From assembly GCA_017528825.1 (NCBI GenBank), contig JAFXOI010000019.1, positions 1 through 46,789 on the forward strand: DNA of 46,789 bases, written 5' to 3'. The stretch is from Elusimicrobiaceae bacterium. Its GTDB lineage: Bacteria > Elusimicrobiota > Elusimicrobia > Elusimicrobiales > Elusimicrobiaceae. Within the stretch, counting starts at the first letter, position 1. Each line of letters begins with the position of its first letter. A model generated the notes under the pieces. That model did no database searches. It was not told where the DNA came from and saw only the letters and a program-made list of their open reading frames with translations. The position numbers and the translations under genes are program-made. Positions 14,885 to 24,880 of this stretch are shown here, one piece after another.

Positions 14885-14956
14885 GCGCCCGTAGTTCAAT
14901 GGATAGAGCGTCAGCCTCCGAAGCTGGAAATATGGGTTCGACTCCCGTCGGGCGCA
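14885..14956 (+). tRNA. tRNA-Arg (anticodon CCG)
   Basis: 72-nt cloverleaf: acceptor GCGCCCG/CGGGCGC, discriminator A, D arm AATGGATAGAG, anticodon loop CTCCGAA flanked by CAGC/GCTG, T arm GGGTTCGACTCCC. The anticodon CCG reads CGG. CCA is not encoded. The last 17 bases (14940-14956) are repeated exactly at 15285-15301. Confidence 0.92.
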
Positions 14957-15301
14957 AATTTTTTCTTCTAAAATTGCTTTTATACTTTGTTATGTGCTTC
15001 CTCGGGTACCTCGGCCTGCCGGCCTGTTACAGTACACGCTCGGTCGCACATGCCTCGTCTAAAAGCAATTTTTTTTGAAAAAATGCTACTTTCGCAAACG
15101 CCTAGAATTAGGGCTTTTTACTTTGAAAAATTAGTGTATGTACGTCTGAGCACACCCACTACTGGGTGTGCGTGCGGGAGGCGAAGGCCGGAGCGATGTT
15201 TTTGTTTGAGCCGCTTGGCGGAGAAAGGCAAAAACCGCGAGGCCCGGCCCGAAGGCGTTTTATGTCAATAAAACGACCGGAGGGGACTCCCGTCGGGCGC
15301 A
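14957..15301 (+). repeat. tRNA-end element at tRNA-Arg(CCG): structured unit closed by a copy of the tRNA 3' end
   Basis: 345 bases between the tRNA and a 17-base copy of its 3' end. Left part: inverted repeat AAAATTGCTTTTA (14971-14983) / TAAAAGCAATTTT (15060-15072) around GC-rich sequence, then hairpin GCACACCCA/TGGGTGTGC. Core at 15183-15244: GGCC, GCG and GTTTTTG paired with CAAAAAC, CGC and GGCC around an inner stem. Then hairpin CGTTTTAT-GTCA-ATAAAACG (15256-15275), ACCGGAGGG, and the tRNA-end copy (15285-15301). Core, GTCA hairpin, ACCGGARGG and tRNA-end copy recur in the same order beside tRNA-Ser at 24487-24694. No coding region supported. Confidence 0.75.
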
Positions 15302-15535
15302 CTTTTTTGCTACCTCTTTTCAATTTTGCCGTTGTTCTCACTCGCTCGAATACCTCGGCGCTACCGCGCCGCTACGCACAGTATACTTCGTTCGTTCGTG
15401 CCTACTCAAAATTGAAAATAGTTGCAAAATATCTACCCTTATCTTGTCTAAAAGCAATGTTTTTGAAAAAATATTACATTGTATACCCGAGCACACCCAC
15501 TGCTGGGGGTGCGGGTACAAACCGTCTATTGCCTC
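15302..15535 (+). repeat. Second, partial copy of the left half of the tRNA-end element
   Basis: Parallels 14957-15180: an inverted repeat of different sequence (TTTTCAATTTTG near 15317 / CAAAATTGAAAA near 15406) around TACCTCGGC and a GC-rich hairpin, then TGTCTAAAAGCAAT, TTTTTGAAAAAAT and a hairpin starting GAGCACACCCACT. The core and the tRNA-end copy are missing. The two left halves differ in sequence but keep their stems. No gene seen. Confidence 0.6.
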
Positions 15536-15545
15536 TCTCCAAAAT

Positions 15546-24486: not shown

Positions 24487-24694
24487 CGGAGAGGGAGGGA
24501 TTTTCCTTCCGGTTATTTTCCTGACGGAAAATACCTGCAGTCCGGCCTCGCGGTTTTTGCCTTTCGCCGTTAACTACATCGGCTCAAACAAAAACATCGC
24601 TCCGGCTTTCAAATCCCTACGCGGCATAAAGCAGTTTATGCCGCTTCCAATTCCCTAAAATTAAAAACCCCACATAAAGTGGGGTTCAAATTTT
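24487..24694 (-). repeat. tRNA-end element at tRNA-Ser(CGA): structured unit closed by a copy of the tRNA 3' end
   Basis: Read with the tRNA (minus strand): a terminator, hairpin GCGGCATAAA/TTTATGCCGC, then the same core as at 15183 (GCCGGAGCGATGTTTTTG...AAAGGCAAAAACCGCGAGG, 24543-24610), a hairpin TATTTTCC-GTCA-GGAAAATA (24533-24514), ACCGGAAGG (24513-24505) and a 16-base copy of the tRNA-Ser 3' end (24502-24487; original at 24710-24695). The GTCA loop, ACCGGARGG and order are shared with the tRNA-Arg element, while the tRNA-end copy matches the local tRNA. No coding region. Confidence 0.75.
24661..24687 (-). terminator. Terminator of tRNA-Ser(CGA)
   Basis: On the minus strand AACCCCAC TTTAT GTGGGGTTTTTAA, beginning about eight bases after the tRNA. 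It lies inside the tRNA-end element. Confidence 0.75.
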
Positions 24695-24779
24695 CGGAGA
24701 GGGAGGGATTCGAACCCTCGAAGCCTTGCGGCTTACAGGTTTTCGAGACCTGCTGTTTCGACCACTCACACACCTCTCC
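24695..24779 (-). tRNA. tRNA-Ser (anticodon CGA)
   Basis: 85-nt class II tRNA: acceptor GGAGAGG/CCTCTCC, discriminator G, anticodon stem CAGGT/ACCTG around CTCGAAA, long variable arm AAGCCGCAAGGCTT, T arm GGGTTCGAATCCC. The anticodon CGA reads UCG. CCA is not encoded. Its 16 3'-terminal bases are repeated at 24487-24502. Confidence 0.92.
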
Positions 24780-24880
24780 AACTATTCTATACACATTATA
24801 CAAAACTCTTGCATACATTCTCATCTCTAACGTTGTGGCGCGCTTTGTAATTTAACACAATGTGTATAGGGTATCCACTT

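Follow-up and report, generated by a model that had tools for sequence, protein, structure and literature searches.

Guide-matched mini-elements beside tRNA genes in Elusimicrobiaceae and Paceibacteria, with a possible role for a folded strand in their insertion

The stretch of DNA analysed here, called the window, is the 46,789-nucleotide contig C19 (JAFXOI010000019.1) of an Elusimicrobiaceae bacterium, from a 1.53-Mb assembly (GCA_017528825.1; source genome G000). It carries two copies of a small structured unit, one downstream of tRNA-Ser(CGA) on the minus strand and one downstream of tRNA-Arg(CCG) on the plus strand (Table 1). The core GCCGGAGCGATGTTTTTG has exactly two matches in the window (15187, plus strand; 24606–24589, minus strand), a count that none of 100 shuffles reached, and its partner segment CAAAAACCGCGAGGCC lies at 15229 (plus) and 24559–24544 (minus). 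Both cores are real and beyond chance. The Ser locus runs from the tRNA through a terminator-like hairpin, hairpin 1 with its ACTGCT loop, the inverted T-arm copy AGGGATTTGAA, hairpin A and hairpin B to a 17-base copy of the tRNA end, and the Arg locus (14940–15301) has the identical order of parts. Hairpin B reads TATTTTCC-GTCA-GGAAAATA at the Ser locus and CGTTTTAT-GTCA-ATAAAACG at the Arg locus. The tail copy AAATCCCTCCCTCTCCG starts at tRNA position 57 and equals the end of tRNA-Ser at 16 of its 17 bases; AGGGATTTGAA pairs with it. An original prediction for this DNA had noticed the recurring core downstream of tRNA-Ser, the hairpin with a different stem and the same GTCA loop, and the 16 bases shared with the tRNA end, and all three hold. 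The target-complementary guide arm, the third hairpin (24644–24621) and the insertion boundary described below go beyond it.

Table 1. Parts of the two units in the window.
Feature	Position	Strand	Basis
tRNA-Ser(CGA), target gene; T-loop TTC (positions 54–56) at 24714–24712	24694–24780	−	ARAGORN and coordinates
Unit left end: putative element-borne replacement tRNA 3′ end from position 57	24694–24711	−	identity block begins at 57 in both junction copies
Terminator-like hairpin within unit; stem 24687–24665, T tail	24658–24693	−	
Expected complement of acceptor 3′ strand; weak in Ser copy, significant family-wide	24645–24656	−	family z = 15
Hairpin 1: variable stem, conserved ACTGCT loop, bulges from guide arm	24621–24644	−	99.7% of cells paired, 8/9 pairs compensated
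T-arm guide AGGGATTTGAA, complements tRNA positions 54–64; one mismatch in Ser copy	24608–24618	−	
Hairpin A, conserved core GCCGGAGCGATGTTTTTGTTTGAG...CGAAAGGCAAAAACCGCGAGGC	24545–24606	−	
Hairpin B: base stem, 3×3 internal loop, bulged A, upper stem, GTCA loop	24505–24544	−	
Original 3′ end of tRNA-Ser, now displaced; direct copy sharing 16 bases with the tRNA	24487–24503	−	family test z = 31
Second window unit, after tRNA-Arg(CCG) 14885–14956	14940–15284	+	
Arg unit, replacement end	14940–14956	+	
Arg unit, hairpin 1	15150–15171	+	
Arg unit, guide	15175–15185	+	
Arg unit, hairpin A	15187–15243	+	
Arg unit, hairpin B	15244–15284	+	
Displaced original tRNA-Arg(CCG) 3′ end GACTCCCGTCGGGCGCA	15285–15301	+	

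The units belong to a widespread family. A covariance model built on ten copies had matches in 80 of 90 Elusimicrobiaceae genomes, at 0–24 copies per genome and with 12 in the source genome; a second model, used for a wider search, had matches in 104 of 340 genomes across Elusimicrobiota, from 18 genera, and in 83 of 285 from the Kaiserbacteria class (Paceibacteria). The named carriers are Elusimicrobiaceae, most of them of animal-gut origin; Patescibacteria, such as Kaiserbacteria and Adlerbacteria, also yielded exact pattern matches. With hundreds of matches in relatives, the two window copies do not stand alone, and the earlier claim of a real family in which each copy has its own target copy is borne out. 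Among Elusimicrobiaceae, 123 of 134 sampled matches lie just 3′ of a same-strand tRNA, with 21 tRNA types represented and a median of 40 nt to the model start. In the Paceibacteria set, which includes a few extra records from the pattern search, 90 of 103 matches lie no more than 450 nt downstream of a tRNA or transfer-messenger RNA (tmRNA) on the same strand. The spacing from tRNA to unit in sampled copies, which are partly of common ancestry, is mostly 4–73 nt, with a maximum of 277 nt. Pattern searches of the source genome place copies behind ten tRNAs: Val(gac), Val(cac), Gln(ttg), Gln(ctg), Arg(ccg), Ser(cga), Ser(gct), Leu(gag), Leu(caa) and Tyr(gta).

Written out in full, a unit consists of tRNA positions 57–76, a terminator, the complement of the acceptor 3′ strand, hairpin 1, the T-arm complement, hairpin A and hairpin B, followed by the displaced tRNA end from position 57. 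Position 57 is where the direct copy begins in both phyla, and the bases preceding it belong to hairpin B. The simplest reading is that the unit entered between C56 and R57 and itself supplied positions 57–76, leaving the tRNA intact; given this boundary, the inserted Ser unit would span about 24711–24504 (208 bp) and begin within the tRNA gene.

A tRNA 3′ identity block is present at both junctions, the classical mark of elements that integrate into tRNA genes by a tyrosine recombinase. The units could therefore be ordinary double-stranded attachment (att) remnants or miniature derivatives of such elements, with the hairpins serving as recombinase-binding or regulatory sites, and the source genome does hold two prophages at tRNA-Ser(gga) and tRNA-Ser(tga). 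However, no related core was found by pattern search in phage, plasmid and viral records (IMG/VR, INPHARED, PLSDB), and none was seen by eye at either prophage, whose integrases we accordingly rejected as autonomous parents. A helper, if mobile, thus has no recognisable copy of the element in those records. Neither compensatory covariation nor inverted arms that track the target would be expected of att remnants, and we find this explanation quite doubtful.

The inverted arms follow the tRNA beside which they lie. In Elusimicrobiaceae copies, the T-arm guide scores 10.1 of 11 matching positions against its own tRNA and 7.8 against shuffled tRNAs (z = 22), and the direct copy is likewise specific to its own tRNA (z = 31). 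The acceptor-strand guide gave z = 15 on the wider region, as against −0.1 on a first, misplaced sub-region; related copies inflate all three positive values. In each of 123 tested copies the guide matched its own tRNA better than the mean for other tRNA types, and with one copy per tRNA type its own tRNA was best or tied-best in 19 of 21. The Paceibacteria guide also follows positions 54–56, counted without three tRNA-Leu/TGG rows that were parsing errors: TTC is answered by GAA in 76 of 78 cases, TGC by GCA and TCC by GGA twice, so that the informative exceptions to TTC number only three. One Paceibacteria copy lies behind a tmRNA and has a guide matched to it. The direct copy does not contain positions 54–56, so the guide is complementary to the target in its uninterrupted form, on both sides of the insertion point. 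This speaks for target recognition through base pairing rather than for a simple site of the attC kind.

This last point bears on a reading in which the folded strand is the analogue of an integron attC site and the tRNA T-arm that of attI, joined by a tyrosine recombinase, the complementary arms merely forming a double-stranded core. It has in its favour a folded sense strand, covarying stems, a conserved order of parts and tandem arrays at a fixed platform. Yet the guide tracks positions 54–56, which are absent from the element's own right end, no integron integrase was found (below), the tested Paceibacteria carriers have Xer as their single tyrosine recombinase, and no cassette genes were seen. 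On balance we consider such a cassette-like system unlikely.

Single-sequence and consensus folds agree on the structure: the inverted arm and the direct copy form an outer stem that encloses hairpins A and B, and at the T-stem/acceptor boundary hairpin 1 bulges out of the inverted arm. Hairpin B has the same architecture in both phyla (base stem, 3×3 internal loop, bulged A, upper stem and GTCA loop). In the Elusimicrobiaceae alignment, 96.5% of cells are paired and compensatory changes occur at 36 of 45 pairs; in the second set the figures are 94.0% and 28 of 31. Compensated cells number 862 versus 268 after shuffling in the first set and 235 versus 56 in the second. None of 500 shuffles matched the covariation of either set, and structures slid along the alignment fall to about half, although these figures lean towards the models because the alignments were fitted to them. 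The compensated hairpins and conserved structure of the original prediction are thereby upheld.

On the tRNA-sense strand, G-T outnumbers A-C by 295 to 33 in Elusimicrobiaceae and by 91 to 8 in the second set. With the fixed G-T positions removed the ratios are 70:33 and 27:8, and these are the fair figures, since the pairs were picked on the tRNA-sense strand. G-T makes up about 1.4% in the variable stems compared with 3.7% in tRNA acceptor stems, the latter free of A-C. These comparisons are suggestive, and only suggestive, of a folded tRNA-sense strand that is more DNA-like than RNA-like. Of the RNA or folded single-stranded DNA step that had been predicted, the folded form is supported by the G-T excess; the step itself we carry forward as a proposal.

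The same features invite an RNA-level interpretation, in which the unit is transcribed and its RNA, bound to a protein or taking part in reverse splicing, pairs with tRNA genes or tRNAs. Strong sequence conservation of hairpin A, the GTCA loop and the bulged A would suit it, as would sense-strand folding and the position of hairpin 1 at the T-stem/acceptor boundary, like the arms of a tRNA. But a terminator lies upstream, the Ser(CGA) unit contains no promoter-like site, wobbles are few, and reverse transcriptase is missing from many high-copy genomes; an RNA guide seems improbable to us. A likeness of the bulged-A hairpin to group II intron domains V/VI was discarded, as the paired positions do not fit.

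Comparison of an orthologous tRNA-Tyr locus points to gain and loss. It has no unit in three genomes (G008, G060 and G052, the last with no copy genome-wide), one unit in four (G007, G051, G002, G064), two units in G061 and G048, and a truncated remnant in G059. A single 191-bp unit separates G007 from G061, whose flanks are 99% identical upstream and 93% downstream; taken alone, this difference could also reflect tandem duplication. Median core similarity is 0.68 within a genome across different tRNAs versus 0.59 for the same tRNA between genomes, and the Tyr and Met copies of G048 have near-identical cores and different guides. Since cores are more alike within a genome across tRNAs, and given the G048 pair, we read these patterns as movement with retargeting; together with the zero-, one- and two-unit loci, they indicate a mobile element. 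A non-mobile structured RNA or regulator of tRNA genes, spread by local duplication, would account for the high degree of structure and for a position nearly always next to a tRNA. It is hard to reconcile with empty, single and double states at one locus, with 21 tRNA types and a patchy copy number, or with displaced tRNA ends and cores common to different tRNA types within a genome, and we think it very improbable.

We therefore favour, with confidence that is about evenly balanced, a non-autonomous mini-element that is steered into tRNA genes by the pairing of its folded strand with them. Such an element, roughly 200 bp long (about 160–350 bp) and with no gene seen in it, would enter the T-loop of tRNA or tmRNA genes between C56 and R57. 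It would bring its own copy of tRNA positions 57–76 and a terminator and push the original 3′ end to the far side, so that the interrupted tRNA stays whole. The tRNA-sense strand would fold into hairpins A and B and a guide arm whose complement in the target spans the insertion point; as a single strand, DNA more likely than RNA, it may pair through the guide with an exposed strand of the tRNA gene. A recombinase or endonuclease supplied in trans would then recognise the conserved hairpins, and cut and join at the tRNA target. The sequences themselves show the anatomy, the junction, the tracking of the target, covariation, gain and loss, and spread among the tRNA types of one genome, and they make a strong case for a target-complementary guide and for mobility; the guide's action, the single-stranded intermediate and the enzyme are proposals. 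That these units form a new guide-carrying class, gene-free folded single strands whose guide directs insertion at 56/57, restores the tRNA and is rewritten on moving to another tRNA type, we hold at slightly less than an even chance.

Several observations weigh against this proposal. No excised form was seen, and no enzyme was found among the families searched (IntI, IS110, Y1 and reverse transcriptase). None of the 90 genomes exceeded the TIGR02249 cut-off for integron integrase, the IS110 DEDD transposase (PF01548) was absent from 25 of 25 genomes, and the Y1 HUH transposase (PF01797) was absent from the source genome and from 67 of 90 family genomes, many of them high-copy. Reverse transcriptase (PF00078) occurred in only 5 of 19 genomes and was missing from several high-copy ones. 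Several guides mismatch their target at positions 57–59, for example GGACGAGAA for TTCGAGTCC. Copy counts are not independent events, as some sampled copies share ancestry, and the proposal does not account for the switch of guide that goes with a switch of target.

Y1, reverse transcriptase, IS110 and IntI were thus rejected as the element's enzyme on absence or patchiness in carriers, Y1 being present in 23 of 90 family genomes. No integrase with the extra domain of IntI was found; the matches to TIGR02249 are split around profile positions 186–244. Five element-bearing Paceibacteria genomes have one tyrosine recombinase each, mutually close and Xer-like (housekeeping), and in two more, the completeness of all seven being unstated, none was detected; no linked or dedicated integrase was seen in these seven. 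Xer was the recombinase seen wherever any tyrosine recombinase was found. The original prediction drew a comparison with attC sites; membership among the integrons is not supported.

By working principle, the nearest known system is the IS200/IS605 group. IS608 chooses its target by base pairing with a short, reprogrammable guide (PMC5934647). In the proposed reading both systems have folded single-strand ends and a guide-chosen target, and guide–target complementarity in our element is strong; unlike IS608, its guide is about 11–18 nt rather than 4, its target is the tRNA T-loop, and Y1 transposase is absent from its host and most carriers. Integron attC cassettes and arrays of attC sites lacking an integrase (CALIN) resemble the element in the folded strand, covarying arms and tandem units at a fixed platform, whereas the element has sequence-conserved hairpins, target-complementary arms (not known for attC) and no integrase. 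No cassette genes were noticed inside units, where no systematic search for open reading frames was made. Filamentous phages of the CTXphi type and integrative mobile elements exploiting Xer (IMEX) use Xer with a folded attP. They resemble the element, as proposed here, in having a folded single strand as recombination partner, and host Xer occurs among its carriers, where it is a candidate helper; the element differs in targeting tRNA rather than dif and in lacking phage genes. In IS110/IS1111 bridge-RNA elements, guide halves flank a hairpin. The element likewise has guide halves around a hairpin and a structured unit of similar size, but both halves would pair with the same strand and IS110 transposase is absent. 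Repetitive extragenic palindromic (REP) sequences, REPINs and miniature inverted-repeat transposable elements (MITEs) are also small, palindromic and non-autonomous; the element differs by its position at tRNA genes, its target-matched arms and a host without Y1 transposase.

The element is not a member of the integrons, IS200/IS605 or IS110. Rfam gave no family match for it and no intron match in the window copies, and no description of such elements was found in full-text literature, a search whose coverage left out preprints and many journals. The family, present in two distant phyla, is apparently undescribed, its newness resting on the lack of a matching family in what was searched; no transposon, integron or RNA family checked accounts for it. 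If our proposal is correct, these units of about 200 bases would form a natural insertion system, retargetable and spread over two distant phyla, that works by nucleic-acid pairing with the chemistry left to host or trans-acting proteins. They would represent a further kind of nucleic-acid-guided mobility beside IS608, bridge RNA and CRISPR-associated transposons (CAST), and would explain a class of repeats that lie next to tRNA genes in Elusimicrobiota and Patescibacteria. The identity of the enzyme and the rewriting of guides would become directly testable questions.

Some further observations concern individual copies. In six displaced copies, differences from the tRNA often lie mainly at positions 58–62, just behind the junction. 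At four loci, tandem units are joined at CAAATCC/hairpin-1 loop without a spacer, suggesting recombination or slippage at hairpin 1. A tRNA 3′ fragment in place of a whole tRNA precedes the element at five loci, probably through prophage integration in the tRNA upstream. Four Paceibacteria loci lack a standard upstream tRNA: at one, a tRNA fragment adjoins a phage-like junction, another has a tmRNA, and the remaining two show no recognisable target. In Kaiserbacteria, the element follows a tRNA-Leu prediction of 379 nt (L352, 1043–1421; L216), which by its length is probably an intron-bearing tRNA gene.

In the source genome, core-pattern matches at C31:85932 and C41:71160 fall inside protein-coding sequence and were dismissed as chance. 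Two prophage-like regions (L038 and L035, 1–3400 of each, on contigs C17 and C20) carry related 390-aa integrases that face the 3′ ends of tRNA-Ser(gga) and tRNA-Ser(tga). In the window, tRNA-Arg(GCG) at 2399–2471 is without an element, so occupancy of tRNA genes is incomplete. The spacer of the Arg unit (14957–15170) holds a further repeat (AAAGCAATTTTTTTTGAAAAAAT, CTCGGGTACCTCGG), partly common to the Ser(gct) unit, and after the displaced tRNA-Arg end, at 15302–15545, lies a second part-copy with a relic of hairpin 1, perhaps a decayed second unit.
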